Source: Candidatus Cloacimonadota bacterium (lineage in GTDB: Bacteria; Cloacimonadota; Cloacimonadia; Cloacimonadales; GCA-2742885). From it: a stretch of 64,000 bases of DNA. The position numbers were made by a program, and so were the translations under genes. This document shows, piece after piece, positions 11,704 to 29,571 of the stretch (position 1 is its first letter; each line of letters opens with the position of its first letter). The stretch spans positions 1 through 64,000 of the forward strand of contig PDOO01000032.1 of NCBI GenBank assembly GCA_002742885.1, in the 5' to 3' direction. The notes beneath the pieces were generated by a model. That model saw nothing but the letters and a program-made list of their open reading frames with translations, did not search any database and was not told the DNA's origin.

Positions 11704-13641
11704 TCAATTCAGAAATAACCACTCAATCGAGAAGTTTACGTGATTTAACCAAGCAGGACGGCTTAGAATATAATCTCGATTAAGCAAATTATATCCTTCC
11801 AGATTAATTCTGAATTGTCGGGTTATTTGCAGAGAAATATAAGAGTCAAGAGAATAAGATTCGTCAAAAATATTGTTAAAATAAATATTTCTGTAATCAA
11901 TGCCGCCGTATTGATATATAATTCCGGCGGTAAGGAAGTTGTGATGCCGTAAGTTCCAAATAAATTTAAGATGCGTTTTCCAATTAATATAAGGTAATGT
12001 CTCAATATTTTCCAATAAAAGAGTTCCGGAGTTAATCCAGTTTCCGTCAAATAAAAGAATTTTGAATTTGTAGTTTGCTTGCCATTCCGCAAAAAAATAA
12101 TTAAACTTTTTGCCGAGATCATCGATCCCGGTTTGATAATGTATGGATTTATCTGTTTTATCCGTCCAAAATCCCATAAAAATCTTTGCGGCAAGCATAT
12201 CATTTTTAAAGTCAATTCCCGCTCCCGATTTATTAAGAGAAGAACTTAACTTAATCTTTTGCAAAGGAGAGTTATTGTAATATTCAATCGGTTCGTTATT
12301 AAGATATTCCGATTTTAGGAAAGGTCGAAAATTTTGATTTAAGGAGTATCCTGATTCAAAGCTGAAAGAATTTTTGTCTTTATTTATAATCCATAAGTTT
12401 ATTCCGAAATCTGCTTTGGATAATTCTGTACGAAAAATAAAAACACCGCCTGTCTCACCGTTAAATTCATGTTGAACGGAAATATCGAAAACTGTTTCGG
12501 CAAATGAGAATTTCTTACCAATAAGTCCCGTATTTTTTTCCTTTTTTAGATTTAAAGCAATCTCTTCTTTATCTGAATTTATCATATCCGCATCATAAAT
12601 ATTTTGTTTGTATTTAAGATAAAAATATTTATTTTCCCAGCCGGCAATAAATTCGTCCTGTTTAACGGAAGCCCAATCGTAATGTAAAGCATATTGTTCT
12701 CCCAAATTTAATCCGTTCAAATCAGAGCGATGATTTTTATATGAAATTTGATATTTCCCTCCGGCGTTTTTATAAGACATATACAAATCAAGATCAGTGC
12801 TTGAGTTGGTATTTTTATGTTTCGGAAAAGAACCTTCCGAGCCCAAAAAACCGAATGAAACATAAAGATTTTTTACGTCGAAAAGTTCATTTTTGCGGAT
12901 TCTTACCAAACTGTGCTGCATATTTACATCGCCTATTCCAAGATCAGTATCGGTAAAAGTAACAGGAAAAGCGTATTCGTAAGGTTCAAAACTCAACAGA
13001 TTAGCGGAATAATCAGCATGATGAAAAGGATAATTTGTTCTGAACTGCAAATGTTCGGCAAAGGGAGCAACGTTTTCCAAAAATCCGAATTTCCTTATTG
13101 CATAATCTGTGTAAAGAGGATCGGAATAATAATTGTAATTTTCTTTCAAAATTAGATTCGGCGCAATAAAAACAGCATTGTCTTCCTGATGCCATAAATC
13201 ATTTTTTAATTTATAAACTGAGTCTTTCAAAGCTGTAATCGAGAGAGTGTCCGATAAGTTTGTCGAAGCCTGTTCAAGTTGTTCCGTTTGAGTAAAAGAT
13301 TTTGAATAAAATTTCAATTCAAAAATCAATTCCGATGTAACGGGAGTTTCTCCCTGAAAGGCGGGAATAAAGTTTAATTCATTTGTCATTTCTTTAACCG
13401 TTTTATCCAAAGGAGACGGTTCTGAAATAATTTCTTTGCGGATGATTTCTCCGGAGTCTGTCAGTTCCGCTTTTACTTTTACGATAACCAAACTTAAGGA
13501 GTCGAATTCCGCCGGAAGCTCAAATATGTTATCTCCTGTGAGTCTTGCCGGTTTGAAATCTTTATTTTCTTCCGCAAAAAGGAAAGATAAGGCTAAAATA
13601 ACGTAACTTAAAAATATTTTTATAAATATATATTTTTTCAT
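11704..13641 (-). CDS. Outer-membrane beta-barrel protein with a TonB-C-terminal-like head
   Basis: The 645-residue protein has a signal peptide (1-23). Residues about 30-112 resemble a TonB C-terminal/energy-transducer fold: V-K-A-E-L-T-D-S-G-E-I, then L-N-F-I-P-A-F-Q-G-E-T-P-V and I-F-E-L-K-F. From about 155 to the end there are alternating polar/aromatic strands typical of a TonB-receptor-like or porin-like barrel, with L-E-G-Y-N-L-L-N-R-D-Y near the end, as in TonB-dependent receptors. No plug domain is visible. It is probably an outer-membrane channel or receptor with a periplasmic globular head. It stands alone on the minus strand. The head assignment rests on pattern only. Confidence 0.7.
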   Translation of the reverse strand: MKKYIFIKIFLSYVILALSFLFAEENKDFKPARLTGDNIFELPAEFDSLSLVIVKVKAELTDSGEIIRKEIISEPSPLDKTVKEMTNELNFIPAFQGETPVTSELIFELKFYSKSFTQTEQLEQASTNLSDTLSITALKDSVYKLKNDLWHQEDNAVFIAPNLILKENYNYYSDPLYTDYAIRKFGFLENVAPFAEHLQFRTNYPFHHADYSANLLSFEPYEYAFPVTFTDTDLGIGDVNMQHSLVRIRKNELFDVKNLYVSFGFLGSEGSFPKHKNTNSSTDLDLYMSYKNAGGKYQISYKNHRSDLNGLNLGEQYALHYDWASVKQDEFIAGWENKYFYLKYKQNIYDADMINSDKEEIALNLKKEKNTGLIGKKFSFAETVFDISVQHEFNGETGGVFIFRTELSKADFGINLWIINKDKNSFSFESGYSLNQNFRPFLKSEYLNNEPIEYYNNSPLQKIKLSSSLNKSGAGIDFKNDMLAAKIFMGFWTDKTDKSIHYQTGIDDLGKKFNYFFAEWQANYKFKILLFDGNWINSGTLLLENIETLPYINWKTHLKFIWNLRHHNFLTAGIIYQYGGIDYRNIYFNNIFDESYSLDSYISLQITRQFRINLEGYNLLNRDYILSRPAWLNHVNFSIEWLFLN

Positions 13642-14157: not shown

Positions 14158-15324
14158 TTATTCTTTATTTATAAGTTTACTTTCAACTGCAGGTAAAGCT
14201 CTTCGATAATTCTTTACGTCTGATTTTAAGTCAATACGTCCTTTTTTTCTTTCCTCTATTGCCGGCAGAACGGAAGCTTTAATAAGAACAAGAAGTTCTT
14301 TAACCGTCGTCTGCTTTTTTTCATATCCGAAAACATAACGCAGTCCAAAGAACCACCAAGGAAGATCTTTGAGGAAAGGAACACCTCGGCGCAACAATTT
14401 TGTTTCTTTGGAAGTTAAGCCGCTGATAACTTTCTCTTCTCCGTTGTAAAGAGTGTGAGTTGTTTGGGTTTTATTCTTTTTAACAACCGTGCTTACCACA
14501 TCCGGTTCAGCAGTTGATCTTTCGGCTTCAACATTCATGTAAATTACAAAATCCCCGTCTTCAAGTTCAATAACTTCCGGAGTTACTTTGATAATTGTTC
14601 CTGCACTGTAAAAATTATCTGTGGTATTTCCGTCTTTGTCAATTTGTTTTATGGAAAAATCTTCACCGTCTTGAACCATGCCTTCTTTACCGGAAGTAAC
14701 TGTAATTGACGGTCTGGAAAGGATATGACCTTTATCATTCGCTTCAAAAGCATCAAACATGGCAGTTACGTCCATAGTCCCTTTTCCCATATCAATGCTT
14801 TTTTTAAAGCTTAATTGTAAAATTTTGTCTGTAACATTGCTTTTCGAGTTCAGGTTTGAATTGAAGTTCACTTTTCCTTTATGATAAGTTGACCAATCTA
14901 TTCCCATTTCTCGTAAAATATTTCTGTCTGCCTCAAAAAAAGTTATTTCAATTAAGACATCCGGAGTTGAGGGATCATGAGAATCTTTTTCTTCTTCCTG
15001 CAACGTTTTATTTGCGGCATCGTTTGATGCGGTGATAACCCAAGCATTGGGAGTAATGTTTAAATTTAATGAATTGGCTTCCAATATTGTGTTTAAAGCT
15101 AACTGCCAATGTAATTTGTCTATATCTATTCCGACATTTCCCTTAAAACCGGACATATCCGCTAAAACTTTATTCTCGGATTTCTTAAGATAATCATTCA
15201 GAAATAAAACAGCCTGTTTGAAAGGCAAATCTTTTTTAAAGGTAACCAAGTCTCCTGCTGAATATATCTCTTCCGAAATTAATAAAATCGGTAACAGCAA
15301 AATAAACAAAAATATTTTTTTCAT
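14158..15324 (-). CDS. Short secretin of a type IV pilus/type II secretion-like system
   Basis: Secretins form the outer-membrane gate of type II secretion and type IV pilus machines. This 388-residue protein has a signal peptide (1-16), an N0/STN-like region (about 25-95, ending in a W-V-I-T strand) and a C-terminal secretin domain (about 118-350). The secretin domain shows V-L-I-E-I-T-F-F-E-A, S-R-P-S-I-T-V-T-S-G, G-T-I-I-K-V-T-P-E-V and G-V-P-F-L-K-D-L-P-W-W-F-F-G. It is much shorter than PilQ or GspD (600 residues or more): the N1-N3 repeats and AMIN domains are missing. It is the last gene of a five-gene operon, 13 bases after the PilO/PilP-like gene. A GGAGG ribosome site precedes the ATG. 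Confidence 0.88.
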   Translation of the reverse strand: MKKIFLFILLLPILLISEEIYSAGDLVTFKKDLPFKQAVLFLNDYLKKSENKVLADMSGFKGNVGIDIDKLHWQLALNTILEANSLNLNITPNAWVITASNDAANKTLQEEEKDSHDPSTPDVLIEITFFEADRNILREMGIDWSTYHKGKVNFNSNLNSKSNVTDKILQLSFKKSIDMGKGTMDVTAMFDAFEANDKGHILSRPSITVTSGKEGMVQDGEDFSIKQIDKDGNTTDNFYSAGTIIKVTPEVIELEDGDFVIYMNVEAERSTAEPDVVSTVVKKNKTQTTHTLYNGEEKVISGLTSKETKLLRRGVPFLKDLPWWFFGLRYVFGYEKKQTTVKELLVLIKASVLPAIEERKKGRIDLKSDVKNYRRALPAVESKLINKE

Positions 15325-15337
15325 TAAAACCTCCGGT

Positions 15338-16372
15338 TTATTTAATTGCTAAACGCATTCTTTCCTGAACACCGTATCTGTTAACGGCAAAAACGGCTTC
15401 TTGTCTAAGCCAATCAATATTTTCAAGATAGCCGAAACGGACTCTGTCGCCTATATTTAAAATTTTAATAATACCGTTATTCCTGCTTTTAAGGAATACT
15501 CGTTCCGGGCTGAGAGCAACCATATCAACGCTTTCAATATCAAGCAAATCAAGAAAATCATCGTCTTTTTTATCGACTTTTTCATGTATTCTCGGAAAAA
15601 AAGGATTATAAGACAAACGGCGAACTTTATTTTTTCTTAATTTTATATTTGCCAAATTTTTACCGGTAGCGGTATAATAAGCTCTCAGTTCAATTGAAAA
15701 CTGAACTCTTCCTTCTTCCGATATATTCATTATATTTAAGGCAAGAGATTCAATAGTGTAAAAAGCAGGTTGTCTTTCCAATTGATCCAAAAATAAAAAA
15801 ATTTGATTAATGAAAGCTTTTCCGGTAAGAATATATTGGTTGTAAAAAACTTTCGAATCTTTTGTTTTTATTCCGCTTTCCGATAATCCGTAATCAAAAT
15901 GAAGAAATCCGGCATATTTATTAGCAATATCAAAGAGATAACTCAATGTTCCCGTAGGGGTGTCTTCTTTCATCATTATTTTATTGTTTAAAAAAACTTC
16001 TTCTTCTATTTTTAATAAATTTTCGTTAACAATATCCACTCTCATTAATTGAGTATTGGAATCTTCCAATTCTTTTTTGATTTTTTCTTTTTCTTTTAAT
16101 AATAATTGTTGTTTTTTGTCTAATCTTTTGTAATTCCAATAAGTTAATCCGACGATGGCAAGGAAAATTATAATTAAAATGATAAGGTTTCTGGTCCTTT
16201 TGTTTATTTTTTCTCCGGATGCGGAAAAAGAATAGTCTTTTTCTTGTGATTTTAAATCTTCCTTTACTTCGTTCTCTTCGTCGGAATTATTGTTTTTGTT
16301 TTTTTCGGAAATCATTATAAAAACATACCAAACACCGACAATAACTCCTGCAAATATCATTATTTTAAGCAT
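15338..16372 (-). CDS. PilO-PilP-like fused inner-membrane alignment protein
   Basis: In type IV pili, PilN and PilO dimerise in the inner membrane and PilP links them to the secretin. This 344-residue protein has an N-terminal TM helix (3-21), an acidic linker, a second TM helix (62-79), a coiled coil (80-105) and a PilO-like region (about 115-240). The tail (about 283-344) shows V-F-L-K-S, I-G-D-R-V-R-F-G-Y-L-E-N-I and Q-E-A-V-F-A-V-N, resembling the PilP homology region that contacts the secretin. Two TM helices instead of PilO's one place the N and C termini on the same side. The gene lies 3 bases after the PilMN fusion and just before the secretin. Assignment is by context and layout; sequence similarity is low. 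Confidence 0.65.
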   Translation of the reverse strand: MLKIMIFAGVIVGVWYVFIMISEKNKNNNSDEENEVKEDLKSQEKDYSFSASGEKINKRTRNLIILIIIFLAIVGLTYWNYKRLDKKQQLLLKEKEKIKKELEDSNTQLMRVDIVNENLLKIEEEVFLNNKIMMKEDTPTGTLSYLFDIANKYAGFLHFDYGLSESGIKTKDSKVFYNQYILTGKAFINQIFLFLDQLERQPAFYTIESLALNIMNISEEGRVQFSIELRAYYTATGKNLANIKLRKNKVRRLSYNPFFPRIHEKVDKKDDDFLDLLDIESVDMVALSPERVFLKSRNNGIIKILNIGDRVRFGYLENIDWLRQEAVFAVNRYGVQERMRLAIK

Positions 16373-16375
16373 AAA

Positions 16376-18982
16376 TCAAGCTCCGTACCGTTCAATTTTT
16401 TGTTGCGCCTGCTTTGAATAAGCGCTGGTAGGAAATTTTTTAACCAACGTTTCCCAAATTTTTACGGCATCATTTTTATTTTCGGCTCTCATAAAAGTTT
16501 TACCGAGCATAAAATATGACTCCGGCAATTTTTCTCTGTCATATCTTATTACATTTTGAAAACAATCTTTTGCCGAAGAATAGATTCCTAAAGCATAATA
16601 AGATTCTCCCAAATAGTAAGTCGCATTTACGATCAGAGGATTATCATTTTGTTCTATATAACTTTTGAAAGCTTCAACGGCTTCTCTGAAATTTTTTCTG
16701 TGGTAAAAATTTATCGCTTTTTTATAATCGGCATGAGTTATCATCAATTTATCTTGATCATAATTTTCGTTTACCGGTTTAAAATAAGAATCAGTATTTA
16801 TCATATTTGCGATATTTTCATTTATTTTCGGGGGAGAGGAGGAGGCTGATTTATCATTGGATTTTTTACCTGATTTTCGGTAATTCATCAGTTTTCTTTT
16901 TGCAATATCGGCATATTTTGATTTCGGATATTTTTTTATCAATTTATTCCAAGTCAAAACGGCTGAATCTTTTTTACCGATGCGAGCATAAGATTTTCCC
17001 AGCATTAAGAGAGCTTCCGGTTGCTTGGCTTTATTAATTTCCAAAACTTTATTAAACATTGATATTGCTTCTTTGAAAGATGAAAGTCCGAAATAACATT
17101 CTCCTTTAAAATATAAAGCATTCGGTTTTAATTTTCCGGGATTTGTTTCCAAAAACTTGTCAAATAAGGCAACGGCATCATTGTATTTACGATCAAAGCT
17201 CAACTTTACCGCCTCTTTATAAAGCGAATTCCCTTTTAAATTCGATTTAGCTTTTTTTCTCGACGGCATAACCGATTCGTCAGTTTTATTTTGCTTTTTC
17301 AGCTCTTTTTTGTTTTCTTTCTTATTTCCTTTTTTCCGGACATTATAAACTATTCCTTCTCGTTGCATATCCAAACGTTTGGTAATCAGCGGATCCGGCA
17401 TGTTAAAAAGAATATCGAAATCCCATACTTTATATGCTTCGATATCTCTCTGGACAACTTTCAAAATCTTACCGCCCGGGAAGAGTTGCGAAAGAGCAAC
17501 AATATTTATTCTTCTTGTTGTTGATCCCGATAATTTAAATTGATTTTTTTCTTTATGAAGATTTATTCCCCAAGTCAAAGAATTATTTAAAAAACCCTTT
17601 GATATTTCTTCTAAAATGAAGTGCCATTGATTTTTATTGCCCATGAACTTATGGACTCTCTCAATGTTCTTTTTCAATTCGGCAATACGTTTTTCTTTTG
17701 TTTTTATGGAATCAAGCAAAGGCTTATTAATGAGTATTCCGTTATGTAATGCTTGAATTTCGTTTTTCAAACGTTTAATATCTGAGTTTTCTTTCCAATT
17801 AAGCCTTACTGAAATCAGAGACATTGCAAGAATTAAAGTCAATACCAACAATCCTCCGAAACCTATGGAAAGATTGTTTTGGGTCTCTTTAATTGATTTT
17901 GGCAATAAATCGGGAATAAATATGTTATCGTTTTCGGGAAACAGTGTACTGAGAGCCAAGGATATCGGGATAATAAACTCTGATAATTCTTCTTCTCCGT
18001 ATTCTGATTCCCCGGCTTCAAACTCTTCTGTCTCAAGCTGCAGGGGTAAAAGAGGAATAATTTTAATATCGCTTTCAAATTTTTGTAAAGTGTTTAAAGT
18101 TTCTTCTTTATTTATATGACCGGCAACAAATATATGTTGAATATCCGGTAAATCCGATCCTGATTTTTCAAATCTGAATCTGGAATAAAGAGTATTTACT
18201 ATATCGTGACTCCTGAAACCTTCATTTATTATCGGCAAGGAAAAGATAATCATCTTGTCTTGCAACAAAGTGATACGAGAATAATTATCGCCTATGTAAA
18301 ATACTGCTGCTACCTCGTCTTCCGGTAAGTCATAATTAAAATTAACCATGTTTACCAGAGCAATTTCATCAGGTATAATATGAGAAAAATGAAAACTTTT
18401 ATTATTTAGATTGTTGGATAATTCGTAAAGGTTTTCCAATAAATTCATCGGCCCGTCGTTTACTATACCGACAACTTTATCATCATTTTTTTTCTTTATA
18501 TAAGAGAAGGTAGCCGTTTTGCTTATTTTAGTCCCGGAAAATGCTGTTTTTACTGTATCCAGTATTTTTTTCTTTTTTGCTCTCGGATCAATATCTAAAG
18601 TATTGTAAAACACGTTGTCTATATCAAGGTTTAATGAAATCGGAGCCTCATGAAAATCCATTTCCCGGGCAATATCTTCCAAAATATCCTTGAACGAATC
18701 TGTTTCATTTTCGTCTTCGACAAATTCCTCGTAAGGAGAATCATTTTTTTTCTCTTCCTCGTTTTCATATTTGAAATCATCGCCGTTTCCGAAATCGTTG
18801 AAATCAAAATCATTGAAATTTTCAAAGTTGCCTTCTGAGGAAAACTCTTTATCTTTATCGGTTACTAATGAATCCTTATAAAGACGGACAATTGATACTC
18901 TGTCTTTTGTTGCTTGCAACAACGCAACTTTTATATCATTACCGTCTTGATATATCCCAAATGCTTTTTTTATCTTTGCCAT
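16376..18982 (-). CDS. PilM-PilN-TPR fusion protein of a type IV pilus-like machine
   Basis: The 868-residue protein joins parts normally encoded separately. Residues 1-345 are a cytoplasmic actin-like (PilM/FtsA-type) domain interrupted by a very acidic insert (45-98). Residues 353-365 read I-F-I-P-D-L-L-P-K-S-I-K, the N-terminal PilN motif that PilM normally binds in trans. A TM helix follows (371-392), then a coiled coil (395-446) and a PilN ferredoxin-like domain (about 450-530). After a Lys-rich linker (540-585) there are two TPR blocks (586-700 and 751-868) that look like an internal duplication (Y-F-K-G-E-C-Y-F-G-L vs Y-Y-L-G-E-S-Y-Y-A-L). The TPRs would sit in the periplasm. It is third in the operon, between the PilT-like ATPase and the PilO/P-like gene. 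Confidence 0.75.
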   Translation of the reverse strand: MAKIKKAFGIYQDGNDIKVALLQATKDRVSIVRLYKDSLVTDKDKEFSSEGNFENFNDFDFNDFGNGDDFKYENEEEKKNDSPYEEFVEDENETDSFKDILEDIAREMDFHEAPISLNLDIDNVFYNTLDIDPRAKKKKILDTVKTAFSGTKISKTATFSYIKKKNDDKVVGIVNDGPMNLLENLYELSNNLNNKSFHFSHIIPDEIALVNMVNFNYDLPEDEVAAVFYIGDNYSRITLLQDKMIIFSLPIINEGFRSHDIVNTLYSRFRFEKSGSDLPDIQHIFVAGHINKEETLNTLQKFESDIKIIPLLPLQLETEEFEAGESEYGEEELSEFIIPISLALSTLFPENDNIFIPDLLPKSIKETQNNLSIGFGGLLVLTLILAMSLISVRLNWKENSDIKRLKNEIQALHNGILINKPLLDSIKTKEKRIAELKKNIERVHKFMGNKNQWHFILEEISKGFLNNSLTWGINLHKEKNQFKLSGSTTRRINIVALSQLFPGGKILKVVQRDIEAYKVWDFDILFNMPDPLITKRLDMQREGIVYNVRKKGNKKENKKELKKQNKTDESVMPSRKKAKSNLKGNSLYKEAVKLSFDRKYNDAVALFDKFLETNPGKLKPNALYFKGECYFGLSSFKEAISMFNKVLEINKAKQPEALLMLGKSYARIGKKDSAVLTWNKLIKKYPKSKYADIAKRKLMNYRKSGKKSNDKSASSSPPKINENIANMINTDSYFKPVNENYDQDKLMITHADYKKAINFYHRKNFREAVEAFKSYIEQNDNPLIVNATYYLGESYYALGIYSSAKDCFQNVIRYDREKLPESYFMLGKTFMRAENKNDAVKIWETLVKKFPTSAYSKQAQQKIERYGA

Positions 18983-18987
18983 TATCT

Positions 18988-20205
18988 CTACATCTTATGC
19001 CTGTAATAATTAAGCAAATCAAACAAACGTTTTTTGTTGTTTGCGTAAGAAATTGCCGTCTCTTTTGAAATTACTTTATTCATGAAAAGTCGGAATAAAT
19101 CTTGTTCCAATGAGATCATTCCGCTTTCTTTGCCTTCGGAAATCATCTGATAAATTTCAGAGATATTATCATTATTAATTGCTGCCGCAACGTAAGATGT
19201 TACGTTTAATATTTCTTTTGCCAAAACTCTTTTTCCGTTCAGAGCAGGAACGAGTTTCTGTGAAACTACGACGCTTAACACATCCGCCAGACGATTTCTG
19301 ACTCGAGCCTGTTCATTGACCGGAACTTCCGCAACTATACGGTGAATGCTTTCAACTGCGGATGCCGTATGTAAAGTAGAAAAGACCTTATGCCCGGAAT
19401 CGGTAATTTCAAGAGCGGTCATCATTGTTTCCGGATCGCGCATTTCTCCGATTACTATAATGTCAGGGTCTTGTCTCAGCGCCTCAATTGAACCTTCTTT
19501 GAAAGAAATAGTGTCTCTGCCTACTTCTCGGTGTCGTATAATACATTTATCTGATTGATGAACATGTTCCACCGGATTTCCGATTATAACTATATGCCCG
19601 GAATTTTTATGGTTGTTCATTGATATAATTGAATCCAACGTTGTGCTTTTGCCGCAACCGGTCAGCCCTGTAACCAAAATAAGACCTTTCTTTTCGAAAG
19701 CTAAATCAAATTTTTCGATTATTTTATTCGGGAAACCAAGTTCTCTGTAGTGAAAAGCCACCGGATTAATGAAACGAAAGTTGATTGCCAATTGATCAAA
19801 ATCCATGTAAGCATCAGCTCGAAATCTGTACAGTTGTCCTTCATGAGTCAATTGATAGGCAAAATCCGTATTTTGACTTATCATAAGTTGATCAAGCTGT
19901 CTTACCGTTAAAACGCTTAAAATAAAGGCAGACATCTCGTCATATCTGAAACGTCCCATATCGGGAACCGGATATTTATTGCCGTGAACCCTCATCCAGA
20001 CCATGTTTTTTGATCCGAACCCTCCAAAATCCAAGTCGGAAGCATTTTTTGAAATCATTCCTGCCAGAATATTATTCATTTTTTTTTCTGCTTCGGCTCT
20101 CCATTCAGGATGTTCATTCAACATCTCGGAAATAAGGTTTATTCTTTCTGTCCCTCTTGTAAGAGGAGGAAGTTTTGAAAATTCGTTTTGAAATGATAGA
20201 GACAT
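18988..20205 (-). CDS. PilT-like secretion/twitching ATPase with an altered Asp box
   Basis: PilT-family ATPases form cytoplasmic hexamers that retract type IV pili. The 405-residue protein has Walker A G-L-T-G-C-G-K-S-T (180-188), Walker B D-P-D-I-I-V-I-G-E-M-R-D, the His box (V-F-S-T-L-H-T-A-S-A) and a retraction-type C-terminal region. The Asp box, normally E-D-P-I-E, reads G-N-P-V-E, so its first two acidic residues are lost, while the Walker B Glu is kept. The gene lies between the YbgF-like lipoprotein (3-base gap) and the PilMN fusion (5-base gap). No pilin, PilB or PilC is in the window. A PilU-like accessory or a regulatory ATPase is possible. Confidence 0.88.
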   Translation of the reverse strand: MSLSFQNEFSKLPPLTRGTERINLISEMLNEHPEWRAEAEKKMNNILAGMISKNASDLDFGGFGSKNMVWMRVHGNKYPVPDMGRFRYDEMSAFILSVLTVRQLDQLMISQNTDFAYQLTHEGQLYRFRADAYMDFDQLAINFRFINPVAFHYRELGFPNKIIEKFDLAFEKKGLILVTGLTGCGKSTTLDSIISMNNHKNSGHIVIIGNPVEHVHQSDKCIIRHREVGRDTISFKEGSIEALRQDPDIIVIGEMRDPETMMTALEITDSGHKVFSTLHTASAVESIHRIVAEVPVNEQARVRNRLADVLSVVVSQKLVPALNGKRVLAKEILNVTSYVAAAINNDNISEIYQMISEGKESGMISLEQDLFRLFMNKVISKETAISYANNKKRLFDLLNYYRHKM

Positions 20206-20208
20206 ATC

Positions 20209-20952
20209 TTATTCCTGTTTCAATTCTTTAAGCAAATATTCAACCAGCTCTCTTCTTTCGTAAGCCGGATAACGTTTTAAAATTCTGCTGAGTTCAATAA
20301 CAGCTTGTTCGTTTTGTCCGTTTTTCTTATAAATAAGAGCAATTTTAACGTGTGAATCGGGAACTTTTGAGCTTCCCGGGAAAAAATCTATAACTTTTTG
20401 GAATTCATTTTTGGCGTATTCGTAATTTTCCAGAGAATAGTAACATTCTCCCAACCAGTATTGTGAGTTGGCTGCCAGTTTATGAGCAGGATACTTTTTT
20501 AAAAACTCGCGCAGATATTTTACTGATTCCGATAAATTACGATCTTCATACGCTTTCAGTCCTTTTTGATAGAGGGCTTTTGCATTTCCCTTGTTTCCTT
20601 CGGGAACAGGGGTTTTTCTCGGAGAGGGGCTTTTTTTTAGGGCTGTTGCGTTTTGGGGACTTTCGGAAATTCTCTTTCTTCTGTTTATCTCTTCTTTAAG
20701 AGAGTTTAATTGCTTTTGCATTTCATTTAATTGACCGGACAGTCGCATATAATTATCTTTTAACGACTTATTCGGCAAATCGGATAAACTGCTTAAATTA
20801 TCCAATTGAACAAAAATTGATTGAATATCTTTTTCAAGAGCAACTATTTTTTTATTTTGTCCTTTCACGGACTCTTCCAAATCACTAATTTGTTTTTGAT
20901 AAGAGCAAGAGCATAAAACAAAAACAAAAATCACGCTAAAAGCTATCCTCAT
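20209..20952 (-). CDS. YbgF/CpoB-like lipoprotein with coiled coil and TPR repeats
   Basis: The 247-residue protein starts at M-R-I-A-F-S (20952), chosen for its GAGG site and lipoprotein signal; an ATG 15 bases upstream is less likely. The lipobox is V-L-C-S-C, with the second Cys likely lipidated. Residues about 20-90 form a coiled coil, a Ser/Pro/Lys-rich linker follows, and the C-terminal half holds three TPRs (A-L-Y-Q-K-G-L-K-A-Y; S-Q-Y-W-L-G-E-C-Y-Y-S-L; A-L-I-Y-K-K-N-G). This is the CpoB/YbgF layout found with Tol-Pal, but here it heads the T4P-like operon, where TPR lipoproteins (PilF/PilW type) act as secretin pilotins. A pilotin role is therefore a good alternative. Confidence 0.78.
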   Translation of the reverse strand: MRIAFSVIFVFVLCSCSYQKQISDLEESVKGQNKKIVALEKDIQSIFVQLDNLSSLSDLPNKSLKDNYMRLSGQLNEMQKQLNSLKEEINRRKRISESPQNATALKKSPSPRKTPVPEGNKGNAKALYQKGLKAYEDRNLSESVKYLREFLKKYPAHKLAANSQYWLGECYYSLENYEYAKNEFQKVIDFFPGSSKVPDSHVKIALIYKKNGQNEQAVIELSRILKRYPAYERRELVEYLLKELKQE

Positions 20953-21221
20953 AAAGACCTCATGCAATAATTAATGAACTCTTGCAGTTTAAGTAGACCT
21001 GCAAAATCACACATGCCATTTATTGCTTAAATAATGTCAAGGAAATAATACTCTATGTCGAATTTTATTTGTAAAAGTGTAAATTATTTAATTTTTGCTA
21101 AAACACACTTTTGCCGGAACACATAAATATATAACTTGTCTTCGAACTCGATTAAGTGAAAATAAATTTTTCTATTTTACCGTTAATAAAAGAAATATGA
21201 ATAATAAACTGTTTGTCATGC

Positions 21222-27727: not shown

Positions 27728-28479
27728 TATTTTGCCTCCTCAACCGATCTGTCGCGGAAATTACCTAATTTGAAGAAAGGCAACATTTTTTCTCTTGCCC
27801 AATTTTTTGATTCAACCGGATCAAGTCCCCAGTTTGTCGGACAGGTTGAGATAAATTCAATGAAAGTAAATCCTCTTCCTTCTTTATTATATTGCAAAGC
27901 TTTTTTTACTGCTTTTTTGGCTTTCAGAATTTCAGCCGGAGAAAGCAAAGAAACTCTTTCAATAAAATAAGGGGCTCTCAAAGTGCTGAGAAGTTCGCAA
28001 ACTTGGATAGGATAACCTATATCGTCGGCATCTCTTCCGTAAGGAGAAGTGGAAGTTTTCATGCCGGGTAAAGTTGTCGGAGCCATTTGTCCTCCTGTCA
28101 TGCCGTAGATGGCGTTATTTACGAAGAAAGTGGTAATGTTTTCTCCTCTGTTGGCGGCGTGAACGATTTCGGCTGTACCGATGGCAGCCAAGTCTCCGTC
28201 TCCCTGATAAGTGAAAACATGCATATCGGGTCTGGCTCTTTTCATTCCTGTAGCAACTGCCGGCGCTCTTCCGTGAGCAGCTTCTGCCATATCGCAATTA
28301 AAAAATTTATAAGCAAATACTGAACATCCGACGGGAGCAACACCCATCATATTGTTTCTCATTTCCAATTCGTCCATACATTCGGCAATCAAGCGATGAG
28401 CTACTCCGTGAAGACAGCCGGGACAATAGGTAAACTGAACGTCGGTTAACGACTCGGGTCTTTTTGCTATAACCTGCAT
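27727..28479 (-). CDS. 2-oxoacid:ferredoxin oxidoreductase beta subunit (thiamine diphosphate-binding)
   Basis: The 250-residue subunit binds thiamine diphosphate through G-D-G-D-L-A-A-I-G followed by N-N-A-I-Y-G-M-T-G-G-Q. An F-T-Y-C-P-G-C-L-H-G stretch lies near the N terminus, and A-P-T-T-L-P-G-M-K-T-S-T-S-P-Y-G-R follows the TPP motif, as in the VorA/KorB family. It carries no ferredoxin domain. It pairs with the alpha subunit, which is 9 bases upstream. Confidence 0.94.
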   Translation of the reverse strand: MQVIAKRPESLTDVQFTYCPGCLHGVAHRLIAECMDELEMRNNMMGVAPVGCSVFAYKFFNCDMAEAAHGRAPAVATGMKRARPDMHVFTYQGDGDLAAIGTAEIVHAANRGENITTFFVNNAIYGMTGGQMAPTTLPGMKTSTSPYGRDADDIGYPIQVCELLSTLRAPYFIERVSLLSPAEILKAKKAVKKALQYNKEGRGFTFIEFISTCPTNWGLDPVESKNWAREKMLPFFKLGNFRDRSVEEAK

Positions 28480-28488
28480 TATTCCTCC

Positions 28489-29571
28489 CTATAAATATTG
28501 TTCTATCTTGGCTTTTACTTCCTCGGGCGTAAAAATTATTCCGCCTACTTTTCCGAGGAATTCGACATCAGCTTTACCGTTTACGGCAATTTTAACGTCT
28601 TCAAGCATTTGACCGAGATTCAATTCAAAAACGACAACTTTTTTGATTTTATCGGTTACGGCTTTTCTGACGGCATTGTAAGGATAAGGCCAAACAGTAA
28701 TCGGACGGATAAGACCGACTTTATGACCTTCGGCGTTCAATTGATCAACTGCTGATTTTACGATTCTGGAAGCTGTTCCGAAAGCAACACAAAGAATTTC
28801 GTTATCTTCTTTGATACAATATTCTTCATGGCGAGTTTCTTTTTCTTCTATTAATTTGTATTTTTCGCTGAGAGAGATAACGTGTTTTTCCAAAACATTG
28901 GGATCTATTTCCAAAGAGTTAACTTCATGATGATGATGTTTTTCTCCGTCTTCGTTAGGTCTCATGCACCAATCATGATGTTTATGGTCTTGAGTCGATA
29001 TTTCTTCATCGGACATTGTTTTTTTAAATTCAACCGGTTCCATCATTTGTCCCAACATACCGTCTGACAGAATCATTACCGGAATTCTGTATTGATCAGC
29101 TAAATCAAACGATAATTGAGCCATATCGGCAAATTCCTGAACAGTGCTCGGAGCCATAACTATGGTATGATAATCTCCGTGACCTCCGCCTTTGGTAGCC
29201 TGAAAGTAATCGCCTTGAGCAGGTTGAATATCGCCGAGACCCGGTCCTCCGCGCTGCACGTTTACGATTACCGCCGGAAGATTGGCTCCGGCAATATAAG
29301 AAACGCCTTCCATTTTCAAAGATATTCCCGGAGAAGATGAAGATGTCATCACTCTTTTTCCGCATCCTGCCGCTCCGTAAACCATGTTAATTGCTGCAAC
29401 TTCGCTTTCAGCCTGCAAAAAAGTTCCGTTTACTTTGGGTAATTGGCGAGACATGTATTCGATTAATTCGCTTTGAGGCGTTATCGGATATGCAAAATAT
29501 AAACGACATCCTGCTCTTATAGCAGCTTCAGCAACAGCTTCATTTCCTTTCATTAAGACTTTTTCAGCCAT
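28489..29571 (-). CDS. vorB: 2-oxoacid:ferredoxin oxidoreductase alpha subunit (VorB-like) with a His-rich loop
   Basis: The 360-residue subunit starts M-A-E-K-V-L-M-K-G-N-E-A-V-A-E-A-A-I-R-A-G and has Y-P-I-T-P-Q-S-E, Q-A-E-S-E-V-A-A-I-N-M-V and R-G-G-P-G-L-G-D-I-Q-P-A-Q-G-D. This layout is closest to the branched-chain (VorB) group. The linker between the PP-like domain and the C-terminal domain is unusually rich in histidine (D-H-K-H-H-D-W and K-H-H-H-H-E, about residues 195-220), where relatives have neutral or basic residues. The operon order is delta-alpha-beta-gamma. In an anaerobe the enzyme would degrade branched-chain amino acids, or run in reverse for synthesis. Confidence 0.9.
   Translation of the reverse strand: MAEKVLMKGNEAVAEAAIRAGCRLYFAYPITPQSELIEYMSRQLPKVNGTFLQAESEVAAINMVYGAAGCGKRVMTSSSSPGISLKMEGVSYIAGANLPAVIVNVQRGGPGLGDIQPAQGDYFQATKGGGHGDYHTIVMAPSTVQEFADMAQLSFDLADQYRIPVMILSDGMLGQMMEPVEFKKTMSDEEISTQDHKHHDWCMRPNEDGEKHHHHEVNSLEIDPNVLEKHVISLSEKYKLIEEKETRHEEYCIKEDNEILCVAFGTASRIVKSAVDQLNAEGHKVGLIRPITVWPYPYNAVRKAVTDKIKKVVVFELNLGQMLEDVKIAVNGKADVEFLGKVGGIIFTPEEVKAKIEQYL

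Follow-up and report, generated by a model that had tools for sequence, protein, structure and literature searches.

What machine is served by five tightly packed genes that resemble type IV pilus genes, two of them coding for fused proteins, in a bacterium that also encodes an ordinary type IV pilus? This question is raised by a window of 64,000 nucleotides from Candidatus Cloacimonadota bacterium (positions 1 to 64,000 of contig PDOO01000032.1), in which five minus-strand open reading frames (ORFs) are spaced by 3, 5, 3, and 13 bases. The genome (assembly GCA_002742885.1, G000 in the following) comprises 2.17 Mb in 53 contigs and is 93.6% complete. A sequence-only reading correctly recognized one tight operon here, and took it for a minimal machine of its own. 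Our analysis points to a different answer: the operon probably encodes the envelope-spanning core and the PilT-type motor of a second type IV filament machine, which is distinct from the canonical pilus of the same genome and is split among loci in this lineage. On balance, we also favor the broader proposal that an entire branch of such machines in the FCB group (Fibrobacteres, Chlorobi, and Bacteroidetes) uses leaderless pilins without a prepilin peptidase, and that the window operon is its core.

All five ORFs are intact, with conserved catalytic motifs. Pfam detects T2SSE in the ATPase, Secretin in the last ORF, and tetratricopeptide repeats (TPRs) in the first ORF and in the PilM+PilN+TPR fusion (MN). 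The PilO+PilP fusion (OP) matches no Pfam family above cut-off, and MN matches only TPRs (Pfam and NCBIfam). The relation of both proteins to type IV pili is supported by their predicted folds, which were computed from alignments of 51 of 70 MN relatives and 47 of 61 OP relatives. MN is predicted to start with an actin-like PilM fold that contains a groove for a PilN peptide. At the place of the adjoining docking motif, 45 of the 70 related MN ORFs contain N-[LFIVM]-[LIV]-P. The predicted structure of OP combines the ferredoxin-like core of PilO with a PilP/GspC-type beta domain. Both fusions claimed by the sequence-only reading are thus borne out at the level of fold, although the joining of PilM and PilN has a precedent in GspL of type II secretion, which shows the same make-up. 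Profile searches against the PDB returned nothing relevant for the OP alignment and, among the best 60 of 148 matches, only TPR-type proteins for the MN alignment. Between OP and the canonical PilO of G000, hhalign gave a weak profile signal (probability 26).

The ATPase is PilT-like, as had been proposed. It scores slightly below the cut-off of NCBIfam pilT_fam (306.5 versus 319.1 bits; nearest family PilT/PilU), matches PF00437 with E 2e-37, and finds PilT as its best match in a PDB profile search. Its Walker A and B motifs and His box are intact, as judged by eye from the alignment. Identity to 16 aligned relatives is 51–64%, with the copies of G002, G003, G005, G007, and G013 at 61–64%. 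The ATPases of relatives are 34–38% identical to the canonical PilT of G000. In a tree of a subset of ATPases with one canonical PilT row and one canonical PilB row, the ATPases of this system form their own clade beside that single PilT. This tree was read without row AT_L047, a PilB2 fragment, and a long-branch warning makes the placement of the canonical rows and of the receiver fusions described below unsure.

The secretin is indeed short and poor in N-domains. It matches PF00263 with E 1.2e-25 and STN only below threshold (E 0.05), whereas the other, canonical secretin of G000 has both STN and Secretin_N above cut-off. We tested the proposal that the TPRs of MN replace the missing N-domains as a bridge by comparing secretin lengths. 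MN varies in its C-terminal extension, which is absent from 40 of 59 loci; the secretins of loci without it are about equally short (median 424 amino acids, n = 40) as those of loci with it (397 amino acids, n = 19). The bridge is therefore not supported. The extension is probably an envelope tether. In two of four extended MN proteins scanned, a peptidoglycan-binding SPOR domain lies between the PilN-like part and the TPRs (L115:11218-13569 and L038:8206-10458). The first gene of the operon codes for a TPR lipoprotein as claimed; its NCBIfam scores are YbgF/CpoB-like rather than pilotin-like (tol_pal_ybgF 91 bits, cut-off 90.1; type_IV_pilW 17.1 bits, cut-off 154). Among 20 relatives' stretches, its homologue adjoins the ATPase gene only in G007 (L029).

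Table 1. Features of the operon in the window, with the basis of each assignment
Feature	Position	Strand	Basis
Short secretin, 388 amino acids	14158..15324	-	Pfam, NCBIfam
OP, PilO+PilP fusion, 344 amino acids	15338..16372	-	PilO fold residues 133-235; PilP/GspC-HR (homology region) fold residues 279-344 (predicted fold)
MN, PilM+PilN+TPR fusion, 868 amino acids	16376..18982	-	Pfam TPRs, predicted fold
Two TPR blocks, MN residues about 586-698 and 750-865	16388..17227	-	Pfam, NCBIfam
PilN-like long helix and periplasmic alpha/beta domain, MN residues 375-541	17360..17860	-	Secondary structure and pLDDT (predicted model confidence) only
PilN-type docking motif around DLLP, MN residues 353-365	17888..17926	-	Sequence, predicted structure
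Actin-like PilM domain, MN residues 1-349	17936..18982	-	Predicted fold
PilT-type (retraction-type) ATPase	18988..20205	-	NCBIfam, PDB profile, alignment, tree
TPR lipoprotein, YbgF/CpoB-like	20209..20967	-	Pfam TPRs, NCBIfam; likely start ATG at 20952

G000 also encodes a canonical type IV pilus (C53:86595-100658). Clear members of this cluster are PilM (PF11104, 172.8 bits, cut-off 27), a secretin (PF00263), PilB and PilT (PF00437), PilC (PF00482), and three N_methyl pilins; the canonical PilA has an ordinary leader and a GFTLIE motif. Genes for PilN-, PilO-, and PilP/GspC-like proteins are ordered between PilM and the secretin, with family matches below the cut-offs (PilO 21.0 of 22 bits; PilN E 0.011; GspC_delta E 3.5e-6). 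Separate pilMNOPQ genes elsewhere in the genome, which the sequence-only reading itself had named as evidence that would refute it, are thus found on C53. Since this canonical cluster is also present, the window operon is an additional, divergent set and not a replacement. The canonical pilus should need a prepilin peptidase. Genome-wide, PF00263 finds two secretins, PF00482 only the canonical platform, and PF00437 the canonical PilB and PilT, the window ATPase, and one protein below cut-off. The earlier statement that pilins, PilB, and PilC are absent hence holds for the operon and fails for the genome, which has the canonical set and two leaderless pilin-like genes on contig C17. The canonical cluster also contains, between its pilB and secretin genes, a gene for a 784-amino-acid lipoprotein-like protein (C53:89638-91992).

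The wider system became visible in relatives. A profile of the ATPase, run against GTDB species genomes, yielded 441 confirmed stretches. The 80 best were kept; they derive from Cloacimonadota, Ignavibacteria, Kryptonia, metagenome-assembled "Bacteroidetes" genomes, KSB1, LCP-89, Calditrichaeota, and others. All 59 loci that have the four genes show the same order: ATPase, MN, OP, secretin. Of 58 order-level genomes, 43 (G000 included) have an MN relative that spans the PilM/N part, as classed by hand from the MN match ranges; the remaining genomes have a TPR-only match or none. A second type of PilB (PilB2) is encoded in 53 and a second type of PilC (PilC2) in 51 of 79 relatives' loci. The fullest order reads small pilin-like gene, PilC2, PilB2, PilV-like, PilW-like, PilX-like, ATPase, MN, OP, secretin. 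At least two minor-subunit genes lie between PilB2 and the ATPase in 28 of the 46 loci where PilB2 is upstream of the ATPase (one strand, within 9 kb). In relatives, the block is therefore part of a larger system, and a minimal machine is not supported. In the nearest families of the window, this system is split among loci. In G003 and G007, a separate contig carries PilC2-PilB2 together with three genes for minor subunits and a fusion of a receiver domain with PilT, with other genes around each locus; G002 has PilC2-PilB2 and part of the receiver-PilT fusion on another short contig. In G008 (99% complete), all PilB and PilC matches are of the PilB2/PilC2 type: the best reach 1.2e-19 (PF00482) and 7.3e-100 (PF00437), whereas canonical copies in other genomes reach about 1e-34 and 1e-128. 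A canonical pilus is thus no necessary condition for the system.

Several loci of relatives contain further genes. The fusion of a receiver domain to a PilT-type ATPase lies beside PilC2/PilB2 in five Cloacimonadota genomes (L127:12039-13589, L128:1505-3055, L130:4802-6340, L132:5751-7298, and L134:5453-6994); two of these proteins were examined with Pfam, and the fusions form a single clade in the ATPase tree. Their presence in sister families suggests two-component control of a second motor. In many Cloacimonadota loci, a membrane protein of about 300 amino acids (sensor-kinase-like by eye) and a response regulator of 283 amino acids are encoded between the minor-subunit genes and the ATPase (L064:8004-9765, L115:8215-9978). 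The secretin gene is followed by one for an LVIVD-repeat, lipoprotein-like protein in a Cloacimonadota genome (L064:15616-17415) and by one for a 1855-amino-acid Big_1/invasin-like repeat protein in an Ignavibacteria genome (L063:15068-20635); both are possible surface or tip partners. In the window itself, a 645-amino-acid protein with a signal peptide (11704-13641, barrel-like by eye) is encoded about 500 bases from the operon. We left it out of the system, given this gap, the lack of a Pfam match, and its absence from the two top blastp hits (E 1e-3) listed for each ORF of 20 relatives' stretches.

The pilin-like subunits of this system share an unusual N-terminus. The major proteins begin with Met-Gly, a residue that is mostly Gln or Thr, and Gln-Gln, and continue directly into a hydrophobic helix. 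We collected 53 distinct majors by a motif anywhere in the first 45 residues (Gly/Ala, any residue, Asn/Gln, Gln, two hydrophobics). The constancy of these letters is partly a result of this selection; a missing leader was no criterion, and all 53 start at the helix instead of with a class III signal peptide. A GGAG, AGGA, or GAGG motif precedes the start Met in 44 of 53. Between this Met and the upstream in-frame stop, 28 majors have fewer than 5 sense codons and 42 have fewer than 10. Three majors (L030, L122, L146) have an upstream alternative start, and in all three the ribosome-site motif precedes the conserved Met. The two intact C17 genes of G000 (about 28196-29221) are preceded by 7 and 16 open codons; their start is therefore assigned from the ribosome-site motif and by comparison with the relatives. 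One copy, MGTNQ..., is the more divergent of the two. Genes of the PilV-, PilW-, and PilX-like types also start at the helix. After regulators had been set aside by a crude letter test, 95 ORFs remained between PilB2 and the ATPase. In 87 of these, at least one of which is a lipoprotein, the helix lies at most 8 residues from the first start codon; it lies later in 3 and is lacking in 5. Leaderless-pilin matches occur in 38 of 43 order-level genomes with the core and in 6 of 15 without it (Fisher one-sided p 0.0005, relatedness ignored). The major-subunit profile also matches 101 of 296 genomes in the phylum of G075. From their position beside PilC2/PilB2, their size, the N-terminal helix, the accompanying PilV/PilW/PilX-like set, and weak profile matches (GspG, E 0.11; PilV, E 0.089; and geopilin, PilA5, PilE1, and ComP_DUS, given below), these subunits appear to be pilins.

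The prepilin peptidase is often undetected. Among 37 other genomes with the system (non-Cloacimonadota loci, completeness not recorded, G000 not among the genomes searched), 10 have a PF01478 match and 27 have none; N_methyl is matched in 12. Both families occur in 9 genomes, the peptidase only in 1, N_methyl only in 3, and neither in 24. The fetched locus encodes a leaderless major subunit in 13 of these 24.

We surmise that the parts work together as follows. PilB2, acting on PilC2, would polymerize pilin-like subunits from the inner membrane. The PilM domain would hold its PilN motif in cis and couple the motors to a periplasmic PilN-PilO-PilP ring, which in turn would dock on the secretin. 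Disassembly driven by the PilT-type ATPase would allow the filament to extend and retract. Since the subunits begin at the membrane helix, the prepilin peptidase step would not be needed. Adhesion, surface motility, or DNA uptake are candidate roles. Observed are the sequences, the gene order, the matches between folds, and the co-occurrence of the parts; that the subunits are pilins, that they polymerize, and that the filament retracts are inferred, as is any role.

Several observations weigh against this proposal. Sequence profiles do not join MN to the canonical PilM of G000 (hhalign probability 0.5), so this link is by fold. Zero minor-subunit genes lie between PilB2 and the ATPase in 18 of the 46 loci mentioned above. 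Five core-bearing relatives, G008 among them, have no leaderless-pilin match, and six core-less genomes have one. The pilin-like proteins do not reach the cut-off of any Pfam family (with ComP_DUS, a C17 copy scores 15.5 of 27.3 bits, E 0.034). Their best PDB profile match is geopilin (E 0.0088, N-terminal half only), with PilA5 (1.7) and PilE1 (8.8) as further weak rows among 9, and hhalign aligns only the helix with PilA of G000. Finally, PF00437 and PF00482 searches found no dedicated PilB or PilC in G000; at 93.6% completeness, the locus for PilB2, PilC2, and minor subunits may have been lost or may be missing from the assembly.

This last finding, together with a core that stands alone in the window, fits the view of the sequence-only reading that five proteins constitute an independent machine for secretion or uptake, with TPRs bridging to the secretin. 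We consider this highly improbable in light of the PilB2 and PilC2 genes in most relatives' loci, on other contigs in G002, G003, and G007, the two pilin-like genes on C17, and the short secretins of loci without the TPR extension. The core could instead serve the C53 pilus as an alternative retraction and channel module and use its extension ATPase, platform, and pilins, since G000 has canonical PilB and PilC and no dedicated copies were found. Such sharing is improbable, however, since C53 has its own genes for PilM, PilN-, PilO-, and PilP-like proteins, a secretin, and PilT, leaderless pilins exist in G000, and the second system occurs in G008 even though canonical PilB/PilC matches are lacking there. 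A decaying remnant, in which the core is on its way out after loss of the PilB/PilC locus, would also account for the undetected genes, and G040 (99% complete) likewise has the core with a canonical-type platform match only. We doubt this explanation in view of five intact ORFs with conserved catalytic motifs, the 61–64% identity of the ATPase to five relatives, and the intact pilin-like genes.

A different objection concerns the subunits. Gly occupies position 2 in 53 of 53 majors (the search motif allowed Gly or Ala), like position -1 of class III signals, so Met-Gly might be a two-residue leader that is cut by an unrecognized peptidase; the pilins would then not be strictly leaderless. This is the least implausible of the alternatives, though still unlikely: the 27 genomes mentioned above lack a PF01478 match, a leader range of 6 to 26 residues is given in PMC4471445, and minor subunits have Gly at varied distances or none.

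How does a second type IV filament machine of this kind compare with known systems? With the type IVa pilus (PilMNOPQ, PilB, PilC, PilT) it shares the PilM, PilO, and PilP folds, a PilN-like part, the secretin, the PilT-type ATPase, and, in relatives, the PilB and PilC types. It differs by the fusion of PilM with PilN and of PilO with PilP, by the 34–38% identity of relatives' ATPases to the canonical PilT of G000, by subunits without a class III leader, and by the frequently undetected peptidase. The predicted C-terminal fold of OP matches the GspC homology region of type II secretion; what sets the block apart from that system is its PilT-type ATPase and its PilN-type docking motif, and its proteins match no GspL, GspM, or GspC family in Pfam or NCBIfam. 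Type II secretion is described as having lost the PilT-type ATPase (PMC10191384). The "type II secretion system" of Cytophaga hutchinsonii, from the related phylum Bacteroidetes, is a similarly divergent type IV filament system, with PilN/M/O/P-like proteins found by HHpred (PMC5553014). Its genes include one for a prepilin peptidase (CHU_3197) and one for a GspG-like major pseudopilin, and the account of the cluster names one secretion ATPase and no PilT (PMC5553014). Denise et al. report that the Bacteroidetes system clusters with type IVa pili, away from other type II secretion systems, and may be a novel system (PMC6668835). For Melioribacter roseus, one of the Ignavibacteriae, known here from the paper alone, pilT, pilQ, pilB, and pilC were reported and pilA and pilD were not found by the authors (PMC3534657), as our system would predict; the passage on these genes calls them probably incomplete and does not mention leaderless subunits. 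The reviews PMC10191384 and PMC4471445 use the class III signal peptide to define type IV pilins and count the prepilin peptidase among the conserved parts. Searches of the open-licence PMC literature turned up no account of this system or of bacterial pilins without a leader.

If our proposal is true, a widespread system that lacks leader and peptidase would escape the usual searches, which are keyed to both. Its existence would account for genomes reported to have pilus motors but neither pilA nor pilD. The prepilin peptidase step, thought to be common to the whole superfamily, would be dispensable in this branch, and the purpose of leader removal and N-methylation would become testable.
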